From Fonticella tunisiensis (lineage in GTDB: Bacteria; Bacillota; Clostridia; Clostridiales; Caloramatoraceae): a stretch of DNA of 64,000 nucleotides. The DNA is taken from NCBI RefSeq assembly GCF_004364155.1, contig NZ_SOAZ01000001.1:1-64000 (forward strand), in the 5' to 3' direction. How positions within the stretch are numbered: the first letter of the stretch is position 1; every line of letters starts with the position of its first letter. The notes below the pieces were generated by a model. It had not been told where the DNA came from, did not search any database, and was given only the letters and a program-made list of their open reading frames with translations. The translations under genes were made by a program, and so were the position numbers. Shown here in pieces: positions 22,655 to 57,851 of this stretch.

Positions 22655-24823
22655 ATGGATTACAAAATGTTATTCGAACCAGGAAATATAGGTAAATGCA
22701 AAGTTAAGAACAGAATCATAATGGCACCAATGGGTAATATAAACATGGCAGACCCCATTGGAAGGCCCCTTCAGAAGATGATAGACTACTTTGTTGAAAG
22801 GGCAAAGGGAGGAACAGGACTTTTAATTACGGGCCTTGTTCCTGTTTCCTATGGCGTGGATCCAACAGTTTCAGAGGATAATGACACTACATATTTTCCC
22901 AGAATAGATGGTTCATCAAGAACAAGGCTTGCTGGGTGGAGGGACTTAACTGCAGGGGTTCACTCCTATGATTCAAAGATTTTCATACAGCTTACAGCAG
23001 GTCTTGGAAGGGTTGGTTCTCCAGAACCTGCCCTTAAGGGTAAGATATTAAAGTCAGCATCAATCAACAGGAACTTCTATGTACCCCAACTTCCACACAT
23101 ACCCTTTACTGACATGCAGATAAAAAAGATTGTTAAAAGTTTTGGACAGTCTGCAGTAAATGCAAAGGTAAGCGGTTTCGATGGAGTTCAGCTCCATGGA
23201 CATGAAGGATATCTTATGGACCAGCTAACTTCCTCACCCTGGAATAGAAGAAAGTTTGGAAGATATAAAAATAAATTTCAGTTTGCAATAGACGTTGTGA
23301 GGGAGATAAAGAAAAGATGCGGTGAGGACTTCCCAATAATATACCGTGTAGACCTTACCCAGGGTCTTCAGGAGTCCTATGGAGATGAGATATTTAAGAA
23401 GAGATTCAGGGGAATGGAAAGAACGATTGAAGAGGGGCTTGAGTTTTGTAAGGCCCTTGCAGAGGCTGGAGTTGATGCCTTTGACGTTGATAAGGGCTGC
23501 TATGACAACTGGTTCTTCCCACACCCACCTGCATACTTCAATGATATACCATACGTTGAGGAGATTGCAGGAAGGTTAAAGGAGTATTTTAAGAAGGAAA
23601 ATATAGATGCAAAGGTTATAGCTGTTGGTAAGCTTGGAAAACCAGAGGTTGCGGAAGAAGTACTTGAGAAGGACTTTGCAGATTTTGTAATGCTTGGAAG
23701 ACCACTTCTTGCAGATCCCTATTGGCCAAGAAAGGTATACGAAGGAAGAGAGAGGGAGATTATTCACTGCATAGGAGATCAGGAAGGGTGTATTCAGTCC
23801 TTCATATTAGGTGGTCATCCCTGCTGTACAGTTAACCCATATACAGGCTTTGAGGACAGCAAAAAGCTTAAAAAAGCTGAAAAGCCAAAGAAGGTTGCAA
23901 TAGTTGGTGGAGGACCGGGAGGCTGCGAGGCGGCTAAAACAGCTTTTTTAAGGGGGCATGAGGTTACCCTGTTTGAAAAGGGAGACAGGCTTGGGGGACA
24001 GCTCATTCCAGGAAGTAACATGAAGATAAAACATGACCTTGCAAGGTACGTATCAAACCTCAATTACCAGATGGAGCTCCTTCAGAAGCAGGGCCTTGAT
24101 ATAAGGCTTAATACAGAGGTTACAAAGGAGGATTTGAAGGGCAAGTATGACGTTATAATATGTGCAAACGGCCTTAATCCTATAATTCCAAAGATAGATG
24201 GAGTAGAAAAGATAAGACACATTGAGGCTAGGGAGCTCTTAAAAAGTGGCATGAAACTTCCAGAGGACGTAAAGAAGGTTACTGTAATTGGGGGAGGGGT
24301 TGTAGGCTGTGAACTTGCCTATTCCCTGGCGTATGAGAAGGGGGTTGAGGTAACAGTTATAGAGATGCTTCCAGACCTTATGACAGGAGTAGTACATGCT
24401 AATCGTTCAATGCTTCTTTGGATGATGATGGGCAAGGGCTCACCATCAGGAAAGGTTGAAGATGCAATAAAAACTCCAATTAAAGCCTATACTTCCTCAA
24501 GGGTGGTAAGGTTTGAGGAAGATAAAGTTTACATACTTGCGAATAGAAAGAGGAAGGATCCATATACTCCATGGACAACCTTAGTGCCTGAAAATATTCA
24601 TAATCCCTTTGATAAAAAGCTGGACCCAAAGGATGTAGAGGAGATAGTAATTGACACAGACTATGTTGTATTCTCAACAGGTGGAAGAGCCAATGATGGC
24701 CTCTATTACGAGCTTTTAAGGGAAAAGGCAGCAAATGAAGTGTATGCCATAGGGGACTCAAGGCAGCCTGGCAGAGCCTTTGAAGCTATTACTGGTGGAA
24801 ACGATGTGGCAAGGTTTATATAA
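22655..24823 (+). CDS. 2,4-dienoyl-CoA reductase-type FMN/Fe-S/FAD ene-reductase
   Basis: A 722-aa member of the FadH/NADH-oxidase group: an OYE-like FMN barrel (about residues 5-365), an Fe-S segment (about 374-395), then an FAD/NAD(P)H domain (KVAIVGGGPGGCEAAKTA, VTVIGGGVVGCELAYSL) ending in VYAIGDSRQPGRAFEAI. Barrel motifs GVQLHGHEGYLMDQLTS and MLGRPLLADP are present. The usual C-x2-C-x3-C-x11-C cluster motif here reads CIGDQEGC then CC, so the second Cys is Asp (codon 23777-23779). ATG 22655 has GGGGG at good spacing, and ATG 22649 is too close. It follows the AcnX genes and may reduce the alkene they make. Its last ~75 bp and terminator recur at 36.1 kb. Confidence 0.9.
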   Translation: MDYKMLFEPGNIGKCKVKNRIIMAPMGNINMADPIGRPLQKMIDYFVERAKGGTGLLITGLVPVSYGVDPTVSEDNDTTYFPRIDGSSRTRLAGWRDLTAGVHSYDSKIFIQLTAGLGRVGSPEPALKGKILKSASINRNFYVPQLPHIPFTDMQIKKIVKSFGQSAVNAKVSGFDGVQLHGHEGYLMDQLTSSPWNRRKFGRYKNKFQFAIDVVREIKKRCGEDFPIIYRVDLTQGLQESYGDEIFKKRFRGMERTIEEGLEFCKALAEAGVDAFDVDKGCYDNWFFPHPPAYFNDIPYVEEIAGRLKEYFKKENIDAKVIAVGKLGKPEVAEEVLEKDFADFVMLGRPLLADPYWPRKVYEGREREIIHCIGDQEGCIQSFILGGHPCCTVNPYTGFEDSKKLKKAEKPKKVAIVGGGPGGCEAAKTAFLRGHEVTLFEKGDRLGGQLIPGSNMKIKHDLARYVSNLNYQMELLQKQGLDIRLNTEVTKEDLKGKYDVIICANGLNPIIPKIDGVEKIRHIEARELLKSGMKLPEDVKKVTVIGGGVVGCELAYSLAYEKGVEVTVIEMLPDLMTGVVHANRSMLLWMMMGKGSPSGKVEDAIKTPIKAYTSSRVVRFEEDKVYILANRKRKDPYTPWTTLVPENIHNPFDKKLDPKDVEEIVIDTDYVVFSTGGRANDGLYYELLREKAANEVYAIGDSRQPGRAFEAITGGNDVARFI

Positions 24824-24877
24824 TAGGAGATTAATATTAAAAGCCCTAAGGTGTAAAGTGTCTTAGGGCTTTAATTT
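24748..24877 (+). repeat. Direct repeat R1 (3' end of ene-reductase gene plus terminator)
   Basis: From CATAGGGGACTCAAG through the stop codon and terminator, this segment matches 36088-36220 nearly base for base. The differences are a TCAAG insertion in the second copy and changes in the terminator loop. Copy R1 is the natural one, in frame with the complete gene. Confidence 0.9.
24839..24877 (+). terminator. Terminator of the AcnX/ene-reductase operon
   Basis: AAAGCCCTAAG and CTTAGGGCTTT pair across a 10-nt loop, and TTAATTT follows. It is 16 bp after the stop. Confidence 0.85.
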
Positions 24878-25804: not shown

Positions 25805-28800
25805 ATGAACGAAATTGAAAAAATTATACAAAACGAAGACAAGAAGAATCCTCTAACAGATGAAAGTATTGCATCGATGTTAAATATAAGCAGGGAACTT
25901 GTCACAGAATACAGACTATTAAATGGCATACCAGATTCCCGAGAAAGAAGAAGGCCATATCTTTATGAAGATGCCAAAAGAATTATTACCCTAAACAGAG
26001 ACATTTCGGACAGAAAACTAACAAAAGAATTAAATGATTTGGGGTATGATGTATCCAGATTTGTAGTTTCTCAAATAAAAAAAGAAATTTTAAATGTGGC
26101 AGGCAATGTAGATGCGAAGAGCAATGCTGAATCGGTTAAAAAAGTAGATTTGGTTGAAAATGTAGAAAAAATTCAAAACACTAAAAAAGTATTAAATTTG
26201 GAAATAGTTAAAAATTTAGAAAGTAATATGGAAAGTAGTACGGACAATGATGGCCAGTTGAGTGATGACCAACTGCTGTCCTTTAAGGAGATTGTAGGAT
26301 TCAATGGAAGCCTTAGGATGCAGATCAGCCAGGCGATGGCTGCGGTATTATATCCGCCACATGGACTTCATACGCTGATACTTGGACCATCCGGGGTTGG
26401 AAAAAGCCAGCTTGCAGAGGCCATGTATAAGTTTGCACTGGAGTCTGGCAGACTTACGAAGGATAACCCATTTATAGTTTTTAACTGTGCTGACTATGCT
26501 GATAACCCGCAACTTCTTTTGGCACAGCTGTTTGGGTACAATAAGGGATCCTTTACGGGTGCGGATACTCCAAAGGCTGGACTTGTAGAAAAGGCAAATG
26601 GAGGAATATTGTTTCTTGATGAAGTACACAGGCTGCCAAGCGAGGGTCAGGAAATATTGTTTTATCTTTTGGACAAAGGGAAATATAGAAGGCTTGGGGA
26701 AACAGAAAATACAAGAGAATCCAAGATAATGCTTATAGCTGCAACAAGTGAAAACCCTGAATCATCCCTGCTGCTTACATTTAGAAGAAGAATTCCCATG
26801 GTCATAGAGCTGCCATCAATTAATGACAGGCCCTTTTCCGAAAGGTATTCCATAATAAATTACTTCTTTGCGGAGGAGTCTTTTAGAATAAATAGACCTA
26901 TAAAGATAAAGGTTGATGTAATTAGGTCATTAATGCTTTATGATTGCCCCGGAAACATCGGTCAGCTAAGAAGTGATATTCAGGTTTCATGTGCAAGGGG
27001 ATTTTTAAATACTCTTGGCAGCAAGGATGAAATTATAAAAATAGATCTATCCTGCCTTCCAAATCATGTTAGAACAGGAATCCTAAAGCTTAGTGAAAGG
27101 AACCATGAAATAGATAAATATGTTTATAAGGATATACTGGTGTACCCCGATAAAAAAAGCAGACTCCTTTCGGGGGGAGATAGATACGTACTTCCAAACG
27201 AGATTTACCAGTTTATAGAAGATAGGTTTAAGGAGCTTAAAAGCCAGGGGATTTCAATGGATGATATAAATAAAATAGTTGGAAGTCAGGTAGAAACGGA
27301 GCTTAAACGATTTGCAGAGAATACAAAGAAAAATTCTGCCGTTTCAAAACAGGAGGTTAAAGAAATAGTGGGTGAAAAGATTGTTAGCGCCGTTGAAGAT
27401 GCAATTAAAATCGCAAATAGCTACTATAAAGATATTAGCTCGAATTTCTTTTATTCTCTTGCAATACATTTAAGTGCTGCATACGAGAGACTAAAATGTG
27501 GAAAATCTATAATTAACCCTCGGCTAGAGAGCATAAAAAAAGAATATGCCGATGAATATAAAGTGGCAAGGGAAATGGTTGATAAAATAAATGAAAAACT
27601 TGAAATTAAGCTGACGGATGATGAGGTTGGATTTGTTGCGATGTATTTGAAAACATTTTTAACCAATGAGGATAAAAACAAAAAAAGAGTGGCTGTTATA
27701 GTATTAACACATGGCCATGTGGCCAAGGGCATGGCGGAGGTTGCCAATAAGCTCCTTGGTGTTAATATAGCACATGGTATAGAGATGGAGCTTGATGAAA
27801 AGCCTGAGGATGCACTTCAGAGAACTATTGAAGTAGTAAAAAAGGTGGATGAAGGCAGGGGTTGTTTGATTCTAATAGACATGGGATCTCTTATAACCTT
27901 TGGAGAAATAATCACAAAAAGTACAGGCATACCAACGCGCACAATAGGAAGAGTTGATACTGTAATGGTTCTCGAGGCCGTAAGGGCTGCCATAATACCC
28001 GATGTTTCCCTTGATGATATTGCAAATGCCCTGGATGTAAGTAAGTCCTATATTGGACACGTTGAGGGGGTTAAGGATTCCTATAACCTTCCAAAGGCAA
28101 TTGTTGCGATATGTATAACTGGGGAAGGTACCGCCATTAAAATACAAAAATATATTAATGATAAGATTCGCGGTATTAATGATACAATAAAAATTATTCC
28201 AATTGGTATGGCTCAGGAATATGAAATAGATGAACAGATAGCCGAAATAAGAAGCAAAAATAACATCGTTGCATTTGTAGGAACCATAGACCCTGAGGTG
28301 GAGGGAGTTCCATTTATTTCGACTGAAGAGATAATGAGTGGAGGAGGCCTCGAAAGGCTTAAAAAAATTATAGGAATGGAAAAGAGAACTAAGAATAGCC
28401 TTGAAGAAGTTATATCTGAGGATTTGATACTGTATAACCTTGAAGCTGATAACAAAAATGATGCTATTGACAAGATTATTGAGCTGCTTGAACTTAAGGG
28501 ATGCGTAAACAAGGATTTCATGCTGAGTGTTTATAAAAGAGAATCAATAGGTCCAACCTGGATAAAGGGAGGAATAGCCATACCGCATGGAAGTACAAAA
28601 CATGTCATAAAGCCTGCCATAGCAATTGCGAAGTTGAAAAAACCTATACAATGGGAGGAAGAATTACAAACTGATTTAATATTTTTAATTGCATTAAAAG
28701 AAGATTCAAAGAATTATATTCATAATTTATATAAAATTTTTAAAAATGAAAATTCGATTAATGCCTTGAGAACAGCAGAAAGTACAGAGGAAATTAAGAA

Positions 28801-28834
28801 AATACTTTTATCAAATACCATACCAACCATATAG
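25805..28834 (+). CDS. LevR-like sigma-54 activator with PTS regulation domains
   Basis: A 1009-aa transcription activator. Order: N-terminal DNA-binding HTH (about residues 1-95); sigma-54 AAA+ domain (about 160-400) with Walker A GPSGVGKSQ, the sigma-54 contact loop GSFTGA and Walker B GGILFLDEVHRLP; a PRD domain (about 455-615); an EIIA-Man-like domain (AVIVLTHGHVAKGMAE, His-containing, about 620-750); a second PRD/IIB-like part; and a C-terminal EIIA-Fru/Ntr-like domain (about 860-1005) with its phosphoacceptor in IAIPHGS. LevR proteins are switched by PTS phosphorylation and drive sigma-54 promoters. One lies 80 bp after this gene, before the PTS operon. The start has GGGGGG about 7 nt upstream. 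Confidence 0.9.
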   Translation: MNEIEKIIQNEDKKNPLTDESIASMLNISRELVTEYRLLNGIPDSRERRRPYLYEDAKRIITLNRDISDRKLTKELNDLGYDVSRFVVSQIKKEILNVAGNVDAKSNAESVKKVDLVENVEKIQNTKKVLNLEIVKNLESNMESSTDNDGQLSDDQLLSFKEIVGFNGSLRMQISQAMAAVLYPPHGLHTLILGPSGVGKSQLAEAMYKFALESGRLTKDNPFIVFNCADYADNPQLLLAQLFGYNKGSFTGADTPKAGLVEKANGGILFLDEVHRLPSEGQEILFYLLDKGKYRRLGETENTRESKIMLIAATSENPESSLLLTFRRRIPMVIELPSINDRPFSERYSIINYFFAEESFRINRPIKIKVDVIRSLMLYDCPGNIGQLRSDIQVSCARGFLNTLGSKDEIIKIDLSCLPNHVRTGILKLSERNHEIDKYVYKDILVYPDKKSRLLSGGDRYVLPNEIYQFIEDRFKELKSQGISMDDINKIVGSQVETELKRFAENTKKNSAVSKQEVKEIVGEKIVSAVEDAIKIANSYYKDISSNFFYSLAIHLSAAYERLKCGKSIINPRLESIKKEYADEYKVAREMVDKINEKLEIKLTDDEVGFVAMYLKTFLTNEDKNKKRVAVIVLTHGHVAKGMAEVANKLLGVNIAHGIEMELDEKPEDALQRTIEVVKKVDEGRGCLILIDMGSLITFGEIITKSTGIPTRTIGRVDTVMVLEAVRAAIIPDVSLDDIANALDVSKSYIGHVEGVKDSYNLPKAIVAICITGEGTAIKIQKYINDKIRGINDTIKIIPIGMAQEYEIDEQIAEIRSKNNIVAFVGTIDPEVEGVPFISTEEIMSGGGLERLKKIIGMEKRTKNSLEEVISEDLILYNLEADNKNDAIDKIIELLELKGCVNKDFMLSVYKRESIGPTWIKGGIAIPHGSTKHVIKPAIAIAKLKKPIQWEEELQTDLIFLIALKEDSKNYIHNLYKIFKNENSINALRTAESTEEIKKILLSNTIPTI

Positions 28835-28849
28835 TTGGTATGGTATTTG
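28812..28849 (+). promoter_or_regulatory. 38-nt perfect-arm palindrome, possible activator site
   Basis: CAAATACCATACCAAC and GTTGGTATGGTATTTG form 16-bp perfect arms around CATATA. It covers the regulator's stop codon and lies about 63 bp upstream of the sigma-54 element, the region where enhancer-binding proteins usually sit. No T-tract follows, so a terminator role is less likely but not excluded. Confidence 0.6.
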
Positions 28850-28911
28850 CATTATATATTGTAGAAAGCATCAAGTGGATGCATTAAGAAATACAAAACT
28901 AGCCAAGGAGT

Positions 28912-28927
28912 TGGCACAATAATTGAG
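28912..28927 (+). promoter_or_regulatory. Sigma-54 promoter of the PTS operon
   Basis: TGGCAC-aataa-TTGAG matches the -24/-12 consensus TGGCAC-N5-TTGCA with the correct 12-nt distance between the -24 GG and the -12 G. The -12 GC is GA, so it is imperfect. It is 36 bp before the EIIA start and follows a LevR-type activator gene. Confidence 0.75.
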
Positions 28928-28963
28928 TTATAATAGTGCGAAACATCAAGGGGAGTGAAGACA

Positions 28964-29422
28964 ATGAAAATATTAGACTTAGTAAAGAAGGATTTAGTTG
29001 TTACAAAATTGGAGGTAGAGAGCAGGGGTGATTTGTTCAAAGTATTATATGAAAAGTTATATAGTGCTGGTTTTGTAAAGGAAAGTTTTCTTGATGGTAT
29101 TGAGAACCGTGAGGCAAAATTTCCTACAGGGTTGCAGCTCAGCAAATATGGTGCAGCAATACCACATACAGATCCAGAGCATGTAATTGAGCCAGCAGTA
29201 GTTGTTGCAACACTGTCACAACCGGTAATCTTTAAGAGCATGGAGAATCCAACAAATGATGTTAAGGTGAATATAGTTTTTATGCTTGCAATAAAAGAAC
29301 CTCATATGCAGCTTGAAATGCTTAAGCAGATGTCAAGGATATTACAAAATGATTCATTACTTGAGCAAATGCTTCAGGCAAATGAAGGCGACGAAATAAT
29401 AGAAATAATTAAAACTGCATAG
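28964..29422 (+). CDS. PTS EIIA component (fructose/galactitol type)
   Basis: A 152-aa EIIA domain protein that receives phosphate from HPr and passes it to EIIB. The phosphoacceptor His lies in GAAIPHTDPEHVI. PTGLQLSKYG and VNIVFMLAIKEPHMQLEML are usual blocks. ATG 28964 (about 10 nt after GGGG) is preferred to the in-frame GTG at 28955, which would directly abut the ribosome site. It is the first gene of the sigma-54-driven operon, with EIIB 57 bp downstream. Confidence 0.9.
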   Translation: MKILDLVKKDLVVTKLEVESRGDLFKVLYEKLYSAGFVKESFLDGIENREAKFPTGLQLSKYGAAIPHTDPEHVIEPAVVVATLSQPVIFKSMENPTNDVKVNIVFMLAIKEPHMQLEMLKQMSRILQNDSLLEQMLQANEGDEIIEIIKTA

Positions 29423-29479: not shown

Positions 29480-29791
29480 ATGAAAAAACAAAAAGAATTC
29501 AAGACTGCTCGTGTAATGGTTGTATGTGCCGATGGGGTCGCTACTTCTACTATGGTACTTGTTGCTTTAAGAGATGCTTTTGAGGATGCGGGAATTAGTG
29601 CAGAGTTTGTTCAGGGAAGGGTAATTGACGCTCCAAGCATGGCTAAAAACGGAAAATTTGATTTCATAATATCAACAGCAGGAACAGATCTTGATCTTGA
29701 TACAGATATTCCAGTGTTCAGTGGAGTTCCAATACTAACTGGAATTGGCAAAGAACAGATGTTTGAAAAGATTATGGAGCTTATTGGTTAA
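29480..29791 (+). CDS. PTS EIIB component (galactitol family)
   Basis: A 103-aa EIIB of the galactitol/lactose-like fold. The phospho-cysteine lies in VMVVCADGVATSTMV, the P-loop of this class. It takes phosphate from the EIIA just upstream and gives it to the sugar or sugar acid carried by EIIC. GGGGAGG precedes the ATG. A 237-bp non-coding stretch with a hairpin separates it from EIIC. Confidence 0.92.
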   Translation: MKKQKEFKTARVMVVCADGVATSTMVLVALRDAFEDAGISAEFVQGRVIDAPSMAKNGKFDFIISTAGTDLDLDTDIPVFSGVPILTGIGKEQMFEKIMELIG

Positions 29792-30028: not shown

Positions 30029-31411
30029 ATGTTTCAACAATTTATGAATACCTTTGGGGCCGCAATTCTTCTTCCTGTCATAATATTAATATTTGAATTG
30101 TGTCTCGGAATAAAGCCTACAAAAGCTTTAAAATCAGCACTTTATATTGGTATTGGTCTTAATGGTCTTGTAAAGGTTCTTAATCCATACTTCATGGGAC
30201 TTATCGGAAAGCCGGTTTCCGATATGATTACTTCCACAGGCATTAACTTACCATATGTTGATACAGGCTGGGCTCTTTTAGCAGCAGTTGGCTATTCAAC
30301 AATCATTGGTGTACTTGTAATACCGGTGGGAATAGTTGTTAACCTAATAATGCTTTTCCTCAAATGGACAGATACTCTTGATTTGGATCTTTGGAATTTC
30401 TGGCATTGGGCCTTCGTAGGTAGTATGGTTTATTATTCAACAGGAAGTTTGCTATATGGAGTTTTAGCTGCAGTAGCAATGGAAATGTTCCTTCTAATAG
30501 TTGCAGATATAACAGCACCTGTAATGCAAAAACACTTTGGTTTACCGGGAATTTCTTTCCCACATGCAAGTGGCCAAGGTTTGGTATTTATATTGGCTCC
30601 TCTAAAGTGGTTTTATGACAAGGTTGGATTATCAAACCTTCATGTAAGCTCAAAGGATATAAGAAGAAGATTTGGAATTTTAGGAGATGCTTCTGTTCTT
30701 GGTTTTATAATTTCCTTCTTCATAGGCCTTATTGCTTGGCACAATCAATTAAATAAAATGGAAACTTGGGCAGGATTATTAACAATAGGTATAGGTACAG
30801 GTACATTTATATACCTCTATCCTAAGGCAACAGCATGTCTATTAGAAGGATTTACAACCCTCAGTGACAAGGTAAGAACATTACTTACCAAGTCAGGAAT
30901 TAAGAGACAAATTAATTTTGGTATGGATTCAGCTCTTACAGTAGGACATCCCGATGTAATTACAGTAGGATTATTAACCATGATTGTTACTGTTCCACTA
31001 GTATTCATTCTACCAGGAAACAAGTTTTTAATGCTTGCAGACTTGGGAGTAACACCTTTCTTCCTTGCTTCAGTAACAGTTGCAGTATTAGGAGGAAATA
31101 TAATTACTTCCTTTATTACAACTACTATAGGAATAGTTATAGACCTTTATTTCTCAACAGCAATTGCACCTGCCTTTGCTCAGACAGTAAAAGCAATAGG
31201 AGTTAAACTACCAGATACAGGAAAGGCGGTTGTTGGTGCAGATATAAGGCCAGTACATGGTCTGTTCTACTTCCTGGGTAAATCATCTGTAGGAATTGCG
31301 GTTGTCTTTGCAGTTATAATCGTAGTTTTACTTGTATTCAAGAAGCACAGTAAATCATTTTATAAAGCCTTTGGATATGGAGAAGAGACTGGAAATAATC
31401 TATCCATGTAG
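30029..31411 (+). CDS. PTS EIIC permease (galactitol family)
   Basis: A 460-aa polytopic membrane protein of the EIIC-Gat family, with about 10-12 hydrophobic segments. It forms the transport channel for the substrate phosphorylated by the EIIB upstream. Family-like blocks include ELCLGIKPTKALKSALYIGI, GLPGISFPHASGQG, INFGMDSALTVGHPDVITVG and GADIRPVHGLFYFLG. AGGGGG precedes the ATG. Downstream genes are sugar-acid enzymes rather than sugar-alcohol dehydrogenases, so the substrate may be an aldonate rather than galactitol (inference). Confidence 0.9.
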   Translation: MFQQFMNTFGAAILLPVIILIFELCLGIKPTKALKSALYIGIGLNGLVKVLNPYFMGLIGKPVSDMITSTGINLPYVDTGWALLAAVGYSTIIGVLVIPVGIVVNLIMLFLKWTDTLDLDLWNFWHWAFVGSMVYYSTGSLLYGVLAAVAMEMFLLIVADITAPVMQKHFGLPGISFPHASGQGLVFILAPLKWFYDKVGLSNLHVSSKDIRRRFGILGDASVLGFIISFFIGLIAWHNQLNKMETWAGLLTIGIGTGTFIYLYPKATACLLEGFTTLSDKVRTLLTKSGIKRQINFGMDSALTVGHPDVITVGLLTMIVTVPLVFILPGNKFLMLADLGVTPFFLASVTVAVLGGNIITSFITTTIGIVIDLYFSTAIAPAFAQTVKAIGVKLPDTGKAVVGADIRPVHGLFYFLGKSSVGIAVVFAVIIVVLLVFKKHSKSFYKAFGYGEETGNNLSM

Positions 31412-31510: not shown

Positions 31511-32470
31511 ATGGCAAAATGGAAAGTAGCAGCTACAGCAGTAACCTTTGGAAAGCTTAATAAGGAGCCAGTGGAGCGTCTTAAAGAATTTGGATGTGAG
31601 GTTACCCTCAATCCCTATGGAAGGCCATTGACCGAAGATGAAATGATAGAATATGCCAAAGATGCAGATGCAATAATTCTTGGTAATGACAAGGTTACCG
31701 CAAAGGTAATAGAAAACTGTAGGAATCTTAAAATAATTGCAAAGCACGGAGTAGGAATAGACGGAGTAGACCTTAAAGCTGCAGAAAAGGCAGGTTTAAT
31801 TGTTACAAATGCACCTGCTTCAAACAATGAGGAAGTTGCAGATTTAGCCATTGGATATATATTAATGCTTGCTCGTGGACTTTATCAGGCAAACGCTGAT
31901 ACCAAGGCAGGCAGATGGATAAAGCCAATCGGAATTAGCCTCTATAAAAAGACTATAGGAATAGTTGGGCTTGGAGCTATAGGTGTTGCAGTGGCAAGGA
32001 GAGCTAAGGGGTTCGATATGGAAATTTTGGGATATGACATCAAGGAAAACCCTGCGGCGCTAGAGATCGGAGTAAAGTATGTAAGTCTTGAAGAACTCTT
32101 ATCAAAGGCAGATTTCGTAAGCTTGCACCTTCCATTAACAAGTGGAACTGAAAATATTATTAACGCAGAAAGACTTAACCTAATGAAGAAGGGTGCGATA
32201 CTTGTAAACACAGCAAGAAGACAGCTGGTTGACTATGATGAACTCTATAAGCTTCTTTCAGATGGAACCTTAAGAGGATATGCTACCGATGTATTTGACT
32301 TTGAACCACCTGCACATATACCATTATTTGATCTTCCAAACGTTATAGTAACACCACACATTGGAGGAACAACGCTGGAATCAAATAGGCGCATGGGGGA
32401 TATTGCGGTAGATAATGTAATTGCCGTATTAAGTGGACAAACTCCTCCAAACCTTGTTAGATCAAAGTAG
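31511..32470 (+). CDS. D-2-hydroxyacid dehydrogenase (SerA-like)
   Basis: A 319-aa NAD-dependent D-isomer 2-hydroxyacid dehydrogenase. The Rossmann motif is IGIVGLGAIGVAVARRAKGF. Catalytic residues are the Arg in NTARRQLVDYDEL, the acidic residue in DVFDFEPP and the His in TPHIGGTT. There is no C-terminal ACT domain. In this cluster it may oxidise a sugar acid or reduce a 2-keto-acid intermediate. The precise substrate is unknown. A hairpin (about 31427-31462) lies in the 100-bp gap after EIIC. AAGGAG precedes the ATG. Confidence 0.9.
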   Translation: MAKWKVAATAVTFGKLNKEPVERLKEFGCEVTLNPYGRPLTEDEMIEYAKDADAIILGNDKVTAKVIENCRNLKIIAKHGVGIDGVDLKAAEKAGLIVTNAPASNNEEVADLAIGYILMLARGLYQANADTKAGRWIKPIGISLYKKTIGIVGLGAIGVAVARRAKGFDMEILGYDIKENPAALEIGVKYVSLEELLSKADFVSLHLPLTSGTENIINAERLNLMKKGAILVNTARRQLVDYDELYKLLSDGTLRGYATDVFDFEPPAHIPLFDLPNVIVTPHIGGTTLESNRRMGDIAVDNVIAVLSGQTPPNLVRSK

Positions 32471-32497
32471 TTTAATATTAAAATGAGGAGAATTCTT

Positions 32498-32785
32498 ATG
32501 ACTGAATTTAAAAAAGCTATCCTTTTAAATAGGAAGGATAATGTTGCAACGGCAATATTGCCCATCAAAAAAGGTGACAATGTGGTGATTATTTATAATA
32601 ATGAAGTAGTTGCCGAAGTGATTTCGCAGGACGATATTGATATGTATCATAAAATTGCAATAACCCCTATTAAAGTGGGAGATCTGATTTACAAGTATGG
32701 AGAAGTCATAGGAAGGGCCACCGACTATATAAATACTGGTCAGCATGTTCATGTAAATAATATTGAAAGTGTGATGACAAAATGA
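32498..32785 (+). CDS. UxaA-type dehydratase, N-terminal SAF subunit
   Basis: A 95-aa SAF-domain subunit of the altronate/galactarate dehydratase family. Markers are NVATAILPIKKGDNVVI, HKIAITPIKVGDLIYKYGE and the ending TGQHVHVNNIES, whose His pair typically helps bind metal. ATG 32498 with GAGGAG upstream is preferred to 32483. It overlaps the large subunit by 4 bp (ATGA), so the two are translationally coupled. In single-chain UxaA this domain is fused to the large one. Confidence 0.9.
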   Translation: MTEFKKAILLNRKDNVATAILPIKKGDNVVIIYNNEVVAEVISQDDIDMYHKIAITPIKVGDLIYKYGEVIGRATDYINTGQHVHVNNIESVMTK

Positions 32786-33963
32786 AAATCAGTGCTTATA
32801 AAAGGCCGGATGGCAAATATGGAATAAGAAATAAGATTTTGATTTTACCTACAGTAGGGTGTGCAAACGAAACAGCAAGACTTATAGCACAACAGGTGAA
32901 CGGTGCTGTAAGCATAGTTAATCGAAAAGGGTGTGGACAGATTGGATCCGGTGTCGAAATAATGAGAAGAACCCTTATAGGATTATCAGCAAATCCCAAT
33001 GTCTATGGAACTGTAATTGTAGGACTCGGGTGTGAAACCACCCAGCCCTACAAGCTGCGAGAGGAGATAGAAAAGGTAAGTAACAAGCCCATAGAAATTA
33101 TTACTATCCAGGATGAGGGCGGCACACTAAAGGCTATAGAAAAGGGCGTAAAACTCGCAAGGAAAATGGCTGAGGATATGTCAAGACTTCAGAGGGAAGA
33201 GGCTGATATATCAAATATTATTCTTGCAACCAACTGTGGCGGTTCTGATGCAACCTCTGGACTTTCTGCAAACCCAGCTTTGGGATACTGTAGCGATGTT
33301 TTAATAAGGGAAGGGGGGACGGTAATTTTAGGAGAAACCACCGAACTTATTGGAACAGAACACATACTTGCAGCCAGGGCAAAGGATGAAAAGGTAAAAA
33401 ATAATATATTAAGCATAGTTAAAGGACTTGAAAATGAGTTTATAAGATTAGGGATTGATGTAAGGGGTGCAAATCCTACACCTGGGAACATGAAGGGTGG
33501 GCTCAGCACCCTTGAGGAAAAGGCTCTTGGTGGAATAAGTAAGGGTGGTACAAGTACCATCAATCAGGTAGTTCGTTATGGCGAACCCCCTAAAGAAAAG
33601 GGGCTTGTAATAATGGACACCCCAGGCTATGACATTGAATCCGTTACAGGCATGGTTGCAGGAGGAGCCCAGATTTGCGTATTTACAACTGGTAGGGGTA
33701 CGCCCATAGGCAATCCTATTATCCCTGTAATAAAAATAACGGGCAATAAGCAAACCTATGAAAATATGATTGATAATATGGACCTTGACATTTCAGGAGT
33801 TATCAGAGGTGAAAAAAGCATCAGCGAGTGTGGCGAAATGATTTTTCAGGAGCTTGTCGATGTATGTAATGGTAAATATACGAAGGCAGAATCCTATGGA
33901 TTTGGTGAGCTTTCCATATATGGGAATATGGAAGTTTGGTGCTCTTGTCCTTTAGAAGATTAA
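32782..33963 (+). CDS. UxaA-type dehydratase, large subunit
   Basis: A 393-aa large subunit of the UxaA family, which dehydrates sugar acids such as altronate to 2-keto-3-deoxy acids. Conserved parts are YKRPDGKYGIRNKILILPTV, the Cys-containing GCANETARLI and KGCGQIGSG, GLGCETTQPY, ATNCGGSDATSGLSANPALG, GETTELIGTEHIL and FTTGRGTPIGNPIIPVIKI. It works with the SAF subunit just upstream. Sulfolactate lyase SuyAB has a similar split form, but the neighbours here favour a sugar acid. Confidence 0.9.
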   Translation: MKISAYKRPDGKYGIRNKILILPTVGCANETARLIAQQVNGAVSIVNRKGCGQIGSGVEIMRRTLIGLSANPNVYGTVIVGLGCETTQPYKLREEIEKVSNKPIEIITIQDEGGTLKAIEKGVKLARKMAEDMSRLQREEADISNIILATNCGGSDATSGLSANPALGYCSDVLIREGGTVILGETTELIGTEHILAARAKDEKVKNNILSIVKGLENEFIRLGIDVRGANPTPGNMKGGLSTLEEKALGGISKGGTSTINQVVRYGEPPKEKGLVIMDTPGYDIESVTGMVAGGAQICVFTTGRGTPIGNPIIPVIKITGNKQTYENMIDNMDLDISGVIRGEKSISECGEMIFQELVDVCNGKYTKAESYGFGELSIYGNMEVWCSCPLED

Positions 33964-34004
33964 TATAATCCATGGTAGTTGTTGAACTAACCAGGATTAT
34001 ATCA
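33964..34004 (+). other. Hairpin between uxaA-like and dgoD-like genes
   Basis: ATATAATCC and GGATTATAT (with TGGT/ACCA inside) form an imperfect long stem right after the stop codon. It is a possible processing site or weak terminator. Confidence 0.5.
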
Positions 34005-34072
34005 ATAATTTTTCAACTAAGTATAAGTGATGTAAATGAAGTATTACTGTCATTCAGAGGAGGGAACAGCAA

Positions 34073-35218
34073 ATGAAGGTTACATCATTAGAACTATATA
34101 AGGTAAAACCAAGATGGATATTTCTTAAAATGAATACCGATGAAGGAATCTGCGGATGGGGAGAATTGATATCCGGCACAAAAACTGAAACAGTAGTAGC
34201 GGGTGCAAGGGAGGTTGGAGAATACCTCATTGGTAATGACCCTATGCAGATAGAGGATATATGGCAGGTTCTTTATCGTTCCTTCTTTAGAGGAGGTCCA
34301 ATACACATGACTATATTATCTGGAATCGAAATGGCGCTTTGGGATATTAAGGGTAAGTACTACAACATGCCTGTTTATGAGTTCCTTGGAGGCAGAGCAA
34401 GGGATAATATAAAGGTATATTCCTGGATAGGTGGAGACAGGCCTGCGGATGTTGCTAACGAGGCACTTAAGAGGAAAGAAATGGGCTTTAAGGCTGTTAA
34501 AATGAATGCAACCGAGGAGCTTCACTATATAGATTCATATAAGAAGATAGACGCTGTACTTGAGAGGGTAGATTCGATAAGAAAAGCGGTAGGATATGAC
34601 CTTGAGATAGGCATAGACTTCCATGGAAGAGTTCATAAGGCGATGGCTAAGGTTCTAGCTAAGGAGCTTGAAAAATACAGACCAATGTTTATTGAGGAAC
34701 CTGTACTTCCTGAAAATAACGATGCTCTCGTGGAAATCGCAGCACACACATCAATTCCAATAGCAACAGGTGAAAGACTTTATACAAGATGGGGGTTCAA
34801 GGATATATTTAAGAGTGGGGTTGTTGATATAATTCAGCCTGACTTGGCTCTAACAGGGGGTATTCTTGAGGGAAAGAAGATAGCTGGTATGGCGGAGGCC
34901 TTTGACGTAGCTGTAGCTCCACATGCACCATATGGTCCGATTGCTCTTGCAGCAACGCTTCAACTTGATGTTTGTACACCAAATGTGTTTATACAGGAAC
35001 AAAGTCTTGGAATTCATTACAACCAGGGATTTGATTTGCTTGACTTTGTTAAAAATAAGGAAATATTCAGTTATAATGATGGTTTCGTTCAGGTACCTAC
35101 AGGCCCTGGGCTTGGTATTGATATAGACGAGGAATTTGTTAAGAAAATAGATATGGAAGGTTTACACTGGACAAATCCCAAGTGGAGAAACTACGACGGA
35201 ACAGTTGCCGAATGGTAA
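34073..35218 (+). CDS. dgoD: D-galactonate dehydratase (enolase superfamily)
   Basis: A 381-aa enzyme, very close in form to E. coli DgoD, which dehydrates D-galactonate to 2-dehydro-3-deoxygalactonate. Shared blocks include RWIFLKMNTDEGICGWGE, MALWDIKGKYYNMPVYEFLG, YSWIGGDRPADV, GIDFHGRVHKAMAKVL (metal Asp and its catalytic His), MFIEEPVLPEN, ATGERLYTR, APHAPYGPIALAA (general acid His), QEQSLGIHYNQG and the ending GTVAEW. GGAGG precedes the ATG. The pathway usually needs the kinase DgoK before aldol cleavage, and none is in this cluster. Confidence 0.93.
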   Translation: MKVTSLELYKVKPRWIFLKMNTDEGICGWGELISGTKTETVVAGAREVGEYLIGNDPMQIEDIWQVLYRSFFRGGPIHMTILSGIEMALWDIKGKYYNMPVYEFLGGRARDNIKVYSWIGGDRPADVANEALKRKEMGFKAVKMNATEELHYIDSYKKIDAVLERVDSIRKAVGYDLEIGIDFHGRVHKAMAKVLAKELEKYRPMFIEEPVLPENNDALVEIAAHTSIPIATGERLYTRWGFKDIFKSGVVDIIQPDLALTGGILEGKKIAGMAEAFDVAVAPHAPYGPIALAATLQLDVCTPNVFIQEQSLGIHYNQGFDLLDFVKNKEIFSYNDGFVQVPTGPGLGIDIDEEFVKKIDMEGLHWTNPKWRNYDGTVAEW

Positions 35219-35249
35219 AAATAAATTTATTTCATGGAGGCGTATTTAG

Positions 35250-35897
35250 ATGAGCGATGTACAAGTATTAAATGGAATAAAGGAACATGGTGTTTGTGCC
35301 ATAGTAAGGGGAACCTCTGCAGATTCACTTTGCAAAATAGCAGATTCACTCCTTGAGGGTGGAGTAAAGACGATTGAGGTTACCTTCAATACACCAGGTG
35401 CCGCACAAATGATAGAAGAGCTTGTAAAGAAATATGGAAAGGAGATGCTGATTGGTGCTGGAACAGTTCTGGATTCAGAAACTGCAAGGACTGCCATACT
35501 TTCAGGAGCATCTTTCATATTATCACCAACACTTAATATAGAGATGATAAGAATGTGCCAAAGATACAGCGTTCTTCCTGTTCCAGGTGTTTCAACCCCT
35601 ACAGAGGCCTTAACAGCCTGGGAAAATGGTGCGAGAATAGTTAAGGTTTTCCCAGCGGGAGTATTTGGGCCAAACTATATAAAGCAGTTAAAGGGACCTC
35701 TGCCACAGATAGATATGATGGCGGTAGGAGCAATAAATTTAGAGAACTTTGCTGATTTCATTAAAGCCGGAGCATCTTCAGCAGGTATAGGTGGAGAGCT
35801 TGTAAACAAAAAGCTTGTTGACGAGGGGAATTTTGCTGAAATTTCCAGAAGAGCAAGGGCATTTGTAAACGCATTTAAAGAAATCAAAGGCGTTTAA
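35250..35897 (+). CDS. KDPG/KDPGal aldolase
   Basis: A 215-aa class I aldolase that splits 2-keto-3-deoxy-6-phospho-sugar acids into pyruvate and glyceraldehyde 3-phosphate. The Schiff-base Lys is in ARIVKVFPAG and the catalytic Glu in GGVKTIEVTFNTPGA. GAGTVLDSETA and FILSPTLN are standard. The phosphate-loop segment reads MAVGAINLENFADF where the family usually has PTGGVN. It is downstream of dgoD in the same operon (31-bp gap, GGAGG). Since its substrate must be phosphorylated, the phosphate probably comes from the PTS. Confidence 0.92.
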   Translation: MSDVQVLNGIKEHGVCAIVRGTSADSLCKIADSLLEGGVKTIEVTFNTPGAAQMIEELVKKYGKEMLIGAGTVLDSETARTAILSGASFILSPTLNIEMIRMCQRYSVLPVPGVSTPTEALTAWENGARIVKVFPAGVFGPNYIKQLKGPLPQIDMMAVGAINLENFADFIKAGASSAGIGGELVNKKLVDEGNFAEISRRARAFVNAFKEIKGV

Positions 35898-35916: not shown

Positions 35917-36168
35917 ATGTATTCACAAAGTATAACTGTTGAGAATAAAACTAAGCTTAATGCAAGACCTGCTTCACAATTTGTACAGGCAGCTGGAAAA
36001 TTTAATTCTCAAATAACAATAGAGAAAAACTGCAAAAATGGAAATCTGAAATCAATACTTTTTATTGCTAACCGTCCCTCTTTTTCGCATAGGGGACTCA
36101 AGTCAAGGCAGCCTGGCAGAGCCTTTGAAGCTATTACTGGTGGAAACGATGTGGCAAGGTTTATATAA
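35917..36168 (+). pseudogene. HPr/Crh-like protein fused to a duplicated reductase tail
   Basis: Residues 1-48 are HPr-like: SITVENKTKLNARPASQF, VQAAGKFNSQITIEKN and KSIL with the regulatory Ser. The phosphocarrier His15 of HPr is Asn here (codon 35959-35961), as in Crh-type proteins where it is Gln. After KSIL the sequence changes abruptly, and from 36088 it is the direct repeat R2, reading SRQPGRAFEAITGGNDVARF in frame to the stop. The C-terminal half of HPr is gone. It probably once was an intact operon-borne HPr-like gene 20 bp after the aldolase. The ribosome site is weak. Confidence 0.75.
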
Positions 36169-36220
36169 TAGGGGATTAATATTAAAAGCCCTAAGGTGTT
36201 TTGCACTTTAGGGCTTTACA
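36088..36220 (+). repeat. Direct repeat R2 with terminator
   Basis: Second copy of the 24748-24877 segment, including stop codon and terminator (AAAGCCCTAA and TTAGGGCTTT, 36185-36219). It carries a TCAAG duplication (ACTCAAGTCAAGGC). It ends the sugar-acid operon. The 36221-36460 stretch that follows has no recognisable gene. Confidence 0.9.
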
Positions 36221-57727: not shown

Positions 57728-57851
57728 TATAATCTTTGAAAAAGGAAGAGAAATGGCATAGAATTTGCATATGAAATACATCAGAGGGAGGTGCGGTAAT
57801 AAATTATTTCAAAGCAACAATAACAAAAAATTAAAACAAGGAGGAAATGTT

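Follow-up and report, generated by a model that had tools for sequence, protein, structure and literature searches.

A palindrome at an activator stop codon in Fonticella tunisiensis as a probable inverted activator site facing a candidate sigma-54 promoter

Introduction

The activators of sigma-54-dependent transcription are the textbook example of remote enhancer-binding proteins. They are described as binding approximately 100–150 bp upstream of the promoter and acting by looping (PMC7057263). Two of the closest described proteins are LevR of Bacillus subtilis and CelR of Bacillus thuringiensis, which share a layout in which an N-terminal DNA-binding domain is followed by AAA+, PRD and EIIA-Man domains, and LevR is reported to bind at −125 (PMC10864463). 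In some LevR-like proteins of the Clostridiales an EIIA-Mtl-like domain takes the place of PRD2 (Deutscher, 2014, as cited in PMC10864463). The AtlR group consists of PRD-containing enhancer-binding proteins of pentitol catabolism, and the article describing it states that UAS motifs are published for four PRD groups and that most UAS lie 100–250 bp upstream (Nie et al., 2019; PMC6615313).

The locus considered here lies in a 64,000-nucleotide stretch of the genome of Fonticella tunisiensis (contig NZ_SOAZ01000001.1, positions 1 to 64,000), referred to below as the window. Like the AtlR group in clostridia, it has a sigma-54 activator with PTS domains beside its target operon (PMC6615313), and Geosporobacter, in which the AtlR group is reported, is among the relatives analyzed here (locus L034). 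Unlike the pentitol operons of that group, the operon in Fonticella looks like one of galactonate metabolism, the likeness between the two systems being judged by description. The activator also differs from LevR and CelR in that its N-terminus is of the RpoN-box type and a C-terminal EIIA_2 domain is added, and whereas LevR binds at −125, the site predicted here abuts the promoter.

Materials and Methods

The family comprised 92 activator loci, made up of the window, 11 others and 80 further loci, with the duplicates L133 (= L033) and L134 (= L032) skipped. The 80 were taken from 83 distinct full or partial activators other than our own, the exclusions being G397:C38 and G536:C17 for their short frames and G560:C1 for its stops and partial match; a fragment of 72 residues in G025 was likewise omitted. 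Promoters were accepted when they lay 0–160 bp after the activator frame or in the 60 bp around its start and had GG and GC intact, which over the 92 loci gave 55 downstream of the activator gene and 30 near its start, and promoter P2 of the window was added by hand. Reduction of the 86 promoters at 70% identity over 60 bp left 62, which are not a blind sample because of this selection by position and GG/GC and the manual addition of P2. The sigma-54 promoter profile was built from 60 family promoters preselected for GG and GC and is hence strict on the −12 element. Held-out scores for the element (14.9 and 15.3 bits) come from a profile whose training excluded the window.

Results

The activator gene and its target operon

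The activator gene and the operon downstream of it consist of the following features.

25805..28834, + strand: LevR-type sigma-54 activator (enhancer-binding protein), 1009 residues, from the Pfam scan and the open reading frame
25808..25954, + strand: RpoN-box-like domain, residues 2–50, homologue of the sigma-54 domain that binds −24
25955..26095, + strand: second helix-turn-helix, residues ~51–97, from the AlphaFold2 model, weakly ArgR-like
26546..26563, + strand: GSFTGA loop of the AAA+ domain, read from the sequence
28964..29422, + strand: PTS IIA (EIIA_2), first gene of the target operon
29480..29791, + strand: PTS IIB, galactitol type
30029..31411, + strand: PTS IIC, galactitol family
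31511..35897, + strand: sugar-acid genes (2-hydroxyacid dehydrogenase, SAF protein and altronate/galactarate dehydratase, galactonate dehydratase, KDPG/KDPGal aldolase)

The RpoN-box-like DNA-binding domain of the activator precedes AAA+ (PF00158, E = 2e-38), then PRD and EIIA-Man (PF00874, PF03610) and finally the C-terminal EIIA_2 domain, and the AAA+ loop is present as GAFTGA, GAYTGA, GSFTGA or GSYTGA in all 92 family loci. Within the operon the galactonate dehydratase match is well over its curated cut-off. An earlier note on this DNA had held that the parts of a sigma-54 circuit are found together, and this is borne out, as the genome encodes sigma-54 and both the LevR-type activator and the adjacent target PTS operon are present.

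Several side observations concern the surroundings and the activator genes of relatives. An exact 70-bp direct repeat occupies 24758–24827 and 36103–36172, and its second copy takes over the end of an HPr-like gene (35917–36168) in which the HPr profile covers residues 1–50 only, such that the HPr of the operon is shortened and joined to a flavin oxidoreductase tail, by recombination or misassembly. Further strong sigma-54 promoter matches (20.4–22.7 bits) are found at 57753, 58971 and 62022 on the + strand, near another activator gene just beyond the window (contig 64471–65277). At L035, L036 and L038 a sigma-54 promoter stands immediately before the activator gene, suggesting self-activation.

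An RpoN-box domain in an activator

The N-terminus of the activator is homologous to the RpoN-box domain with which sigma-54 reads the −24 element. In each of 12 orthologues, residues 2–50 are recognized by Pfam Sigma54_DBD (best E = 1e-9), and a profile made from 12 activators alone has the sigma-54 RpoN domain as its top PDB matches (2o8k/2o9l, E = 4.3e-10; 2ahq, E = 7.9e-10). Genome searches with this profile return activators (frames of ~1000 residues) and after them mostly RpoN-sized frames of 430–500 residues, aligned over model positions ~2–55, and the RpoN encoded by the Fonticella genome itself matches with E = 9.9e-12. The AlphaFold2 model of the DNA-binding region has a pLDDT of 96, and its best Foldseek match is again 2o8k, the RpoN domain on −24 DNA, with an rmsd of 1.4 Å, 45% identity over 51 columns and E = 0.023. 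The second helix-turn-helix aligns with the N-terminal domain of AhrC (VIA-align, Z = 7.0, rmsd 2.4 over 51 residues). Because the Foldseek E value is weak (0.023 at best) and the VIA-align Z is below 8, this homology, a computational result, is drawn from the sequence profiles, and the fold is supporting evidence.

Unlike its counterpart in sigma-54, the domain is part of an activator, is followed by a second helix-turn-helix and has one of the two RpoN-box arginines replaced. The first of these (R455/R456 in E. coli numbering) is invariant, while the second is replaced in 12 of 12 aligned activators. In E. coli sigma-54 both are needed for binding of −24 (PMC7175178), and hence the activator and sigma-54 cannot read DNA identically. 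In four other LevR-type proteins encoded by this genome the N-terminal helix-turn-helix is of the ordinary kind, and none exceeds 12.1 bits when scored with the family profile; two of the four are followed by promoters that lack the element described below.

The palindrome, two promoters and a tandem duplication

The region between the end of the activator gene and the IIA gene contains the following features.

28812–28849, no strand: 38-nt palindrome with 16-bp arms and a 6-nt loop, spanning the activator stop codon
28813–28829, + strand: proposed activator site 1, AAATACCATACCAACCA, in the left palindrome arm, 5 bp before P1; 14.9 bits on the held-out profile
28835–28851, + strand: candidate sigma-54 promoter P1, TTGGTATGGTATTTGCA, in the right palindrome arm; expected start ~28862
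28889–28905, + strand: proposed activator site 2, AAATACAAAACTAGCCA, 5 bp before P2; 15.3 bits on the held-out profile
28911–28927, + strand: P2, the promoter named in the earlier note, TTGGCACAATAATTGAG, with GA for GC at −12; expected start ~28938 if used
28812–28888, + strand: tandem copy 1, comprising site 1, P1 and a leader
28889–28964, + strand: tandem copy 2, comprising site 2, P2, a leader and the IIA ribosome-binding site

The palindrome claimed in the earlier note is present at the activator stop. Its arms (28812–28827 and 28834–28849) match exactly, or as 19-nt arms at 95% when the loop is counted, and the TAG (28832–28834) that ends the frame 25805–28834 sits within it. Folded as RNA it reaches −23.1 kcal/mol (z = −6.3), a value equalled by none of 200 dinucleotide shuffles. 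What had been overlooked is that the right arm is a strong candidate for a promoter of the canonical sigma-54 type, P1, and a better match than P2. P1 reads TTGGTAT-N5-TTGCA and satisfies the −24/−12 pattern, with TTGG-YAY and the GG-N10-GC spacing; it has 20.0 bits on the profile of 60 family promoters (minimum 13.5, median 21.6), and the whole 3.1-Mb genome has only 21 matches to TTGGYAYN5TTGCW, of which it is one.

For P2, the sequence and spacing given earlier are there, namely TGGCAC (28912–28917), N5 and TTGAG (28923–28927), separated by 36 nt from the IIA ATG (28964) downstream and by 62 nt from the palindrome upstream, and its −24 half is a complete TTGGCAC. Its standing as a promoter is diminished, however, as it reads GG-N10-GA where GG-N10-GC is usual, and the loss of the −12 C accounts for a score of 12.6 bits, under that of the lowest family promoter on the same profile. 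In the closest orthologues, L110, L120, L112 and L113 (activators 65–67% identical) and L106 (63%), TTGGCAC-N5-TTGCA begins exactly at the activator stop codon and lies shortly before the IIA start, and no second promoter precedes that start in the 200 nt inspected. As their promoter lies exactly at the stop, P1 is its positional counterpart, an agreement found by computational comparison. From these sequences we infer that P1 would be the main transcription start, and we propose that P2 is a weaker or dead promoter. A sigma-70-type promoter as the main promoter of IIA was also considered and rejected, the scan yielding 40 matches versus 38.6 in shuffles and none ending right before the IIA start.

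The element, the promoter and the leader form a unit that has been duplicated. Aligned computationally, the two copies score 70, compared with 29 ± 6.1 (maximum 55.5) in 1000 shuffles, and their leaders alone score 34.5 against a shuffle maximum of 30.0. Copy 1 has a good promoter with a diverged, palindromic element, and copy 2 has a consensus element with a damaged promoter. As a separate observation, two or three successive sigma-54 promoters occur within 450 bp after the activator, ahead of the genes that follow it, at L032, L033, L139, L140, L142, L144, L154 and L157.

A conserved 17-bp element abutting the promoters

Motif discovery in the 45 bp upstream of the 62 non-redundant promoters gave a 17-bp element, TAATACAAAATCAGCCA, with a log-likelihood gain of 214, versus 50–66 in all five shuffled sets. 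At a threshold of at least 9 bits and a gap of 3–7 bp (mostly 4–6) to the promoter heptamer TTGGCAY, it is found in 34 of the 62 promoters (0.15% in shuffles) and missed in the other 28. The conservation and the narrow spacing are computational observations that hold for part of the family, and in cross-validation less than half were recovered, with 7/24 promoters before the gene after training on those after it (shuffle 0.4%) and 14/38 after the gene in the reverse direction (shuffle 0.6%). The gap of 3–7 bp in those 34 promoters is not that of a conventional UAS, for which a distance of at least ~100 bp from the promoter is taken as typical. The Fonticella genome has 20 other promoter-like sites, some of which are perhaps not promoters, and the element is present at none of them (highest score 4.0 bits).

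The position homologous to site 1 is occupied in L106, L110, L112, L113 and L120, and the same 17-mer as site 2 precedes the promoters of L172, L176 and L178. The pattern AATACMAWACYRRCCA, which was drawn up with these sites in view, has two exact matches in 3.1 Mb, both at this locus. In L172, L175, L176 and L178 the element lies outside the coding sequence, with the promoter 30 bp past the stop, and for this reason we regard it as a feature of the DNA rather than a conserved protein tail. On the other strand it resembles TGGC-N3-TTTTGTA, i.e., GG-N8-GT, where the promoter has GG-N10-GC; judged by sequence it is a related yet distinct signal, as would be expected for a related but altered domain. 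At the usual 5-bp gap the CC of the element is 10 bp from the GG of the promoter, which places the two on the same helix face in opposite orientation. Variants of the element track variants of the recognition helix of the activator, e.g., YITQFR/YITEFR with TTTTCAACA or close variants, although this covariation is confounded by phylogeny and relatedness could yield the same pattern.

A search for one motif common to all family members failed, since the group of L032/L033 has TTTTTCAACA-type elements instead and the Enterococcus loci L039–L042 have different repeats upstream of their promoters. At L040–L042 tandem ACCAAAATGAACAGGTC-like repeats ~21 bp apart are located upstream of the operon promoter and are a candidate enhancer of the Enterococcus members. 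Remote repeats are seemingly used in place of the abutting element at L159, L160, L162, L166, L171 and L177; in all of these but L166 we noted RpoN-box activators that lack the abutting element and have repeated AAAATGTATA-type sequences further upstream of the activator, which are perhaps ordinary remote enhancers. At L117, L119, L034, L116 and L139 the abutting element is preceded further upstream by an extra, oppositely oriented copy. Over the 62 promoters, an extra element at −46 to −150 occurs in 10, P2 among them, versus 1.3 expected. A remote site for P1 at 28591–28607 (11.0 bits) was dismissed as background, there being 55 matches of at least 9 bits in 64 kb.

Origin of the perfect symmetry

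Of the two arms of the palindrome only the left is a good match to the family element, with 14.9 bits, the right arm having 10.2 bits on the opposite strand. Two adjacent motifs do not fully account for the palindrome, however, as the longest arm was 10 in 3000 simulated pairs and 8 among 60 real family promoters, compared with 16 here. It is also ruled out as an RNA hairpin conserved in the family, since the equivalent stretch, with z = −7.6 here, falls below −3 at only 6 of 62 family promoters (median −0.66). The same palindrome had been sought before orthologous operons, where the promoter and the element do recur and the perfect symmetry is absent; L110 and similar relatives have an imperfect counterpart, AATACCG.CCAATTAATTGG..CGGTATT. 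That the inverted repeat reaches 16 perfect base pairs is, by this comparison of sequences, peculiar to the F. tunisiensis genome. This extension may have originated by template-switch correction of a quasi-palindrome, or it may reflect selection for a hairpin that ends the activator transcript, as no other hairpin follows the activator gene.

Discussion

We propose, with a probability of roughly 0.68, that the palindrome is best explained as an inverted activator site and P1 placed head to head, with activation from the abutting position and a tandem copy that includes P2. The left arm (28813–28829) would be the activator site and the right arm (28835–28851) the promoter, and the activator encoded upstream would read its site with the domain that shares ancestry with the −24-reading domain of sigma-54. 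Given this ancestry, both proteins would recognize similar TGGC/TTGG-type sequences that face each other approximately one helical turn apart. The DNA in the modelled closed complex reaches ~−33 (PMC5505868), and as the element begins at ~−33 the activator would sit directly behind the polymerase, in place of or besides a remote enhancer. With PTS phosphorylation signalling the sugar, the activator would contact sigma-54 and open the promoter of the galactitol-type PTS/galactonate operon, while the tandem copy (28889–28964) would supply a second consensus activator site and the weaker or dead P2. We infer from the sequences that the activator itself would bind the element, that activation would proceed from the abutting site and that a PTS signal would control the activator. 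An abutting site would be unusual, as the activators in print act from ~100–150 bp upstream.

The earlier note had viewed the palindrome as the recognition site of the activator, serving P2 from a distance. Recognition is probable, but the view of the palindrome purely as a remote enhancer serving P2 is not supported, its right arm being P1. It could still act as a distal enhancer for P2 if that promoter were in use, as a conventional symmetric site at which each arm is bound by one subunit of an activator dimer. In favor of this, the −24 half of P2 is a complete TTGGCAC preceded at 5 bp by a consensus activator site, the palindrome is located ~76 bp further upstream with activator-site matches on both strands, and 10 of the 62 promoters have an extra site at −46 to −150, although P2 is counted among them. 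We nevertheless consider it unlikely that P2 is the promoter in use and is served in this way, because P2 is without the −12 C and scores only 12.6 bits, and the closest orthologues have a single module, at the position of P1.

A main role of the palindrome in Rho-independent termination after the activator gene, with an incidental likeness to a promoter and an activator site, is quite improbable. The 16-bp hairpin over the stop codon is stable, appears in the list of the terminator scan and is more symmetric than two motifs would yield, and a separate hairpin with a T run is found at that place in L032, L033 and L141, where the promoter is further off. However, only 6 of the 16 pairs of the stem are G-C, the T run in the tail that follows (CATTATATAT) is poor, the terminator scan found 6 sites versus 7.1 in shuffles, and the hairpin is not conserved, the orthologous stretches having no strong hairpin whereas the promoter and the element recur. 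Through its perfect symmetry the site may also serve as a terminator. Binding of the element by another factor, such as a second, oppositely directed sigma-54 holoenzyme or an unrelated regulator, would draw on the minus strand of the left arm, TTGGTATGGTATTTGAT, which is sigma-54-like at 13.4 bits. This site also lacks the −12 C, and the element varies with the recognition helix of the activator and is absent at the other sigma-54 promoter-like sites of the genome, which makes a different binding factor highly improbable.

The reading as an activator site facing P1 can be carried further, to a view that we put forward tentatively and regard as possible but doubtful. A widespread subfamily of activators may have taken over the −24-reading domain of sigma-54 and may bind an inverted −24-like site behind the promoter, forming a pseudo-symmetric pair with sigma-54 that needs no looping; in Fonticella the two sites would have become one perfect palindrome, each arm being readable by both proteins, with competition as well as cooperation between them. 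In the literature covered, which took in few subscription papers, we recognized no account of an activator with a DNA-binding domain of the RpoN-box type, nor of an abutting inverted site, and the motif of the element may already be in print. If true, the arrangement would provide a natural example in which activation does without long loops, and would illustrate a route by which the sigma factor itself could give rise to the specificity of an activator. It also offers short and directly testable DNA sites in many Firmicutes, as represented by the 80 further loci.
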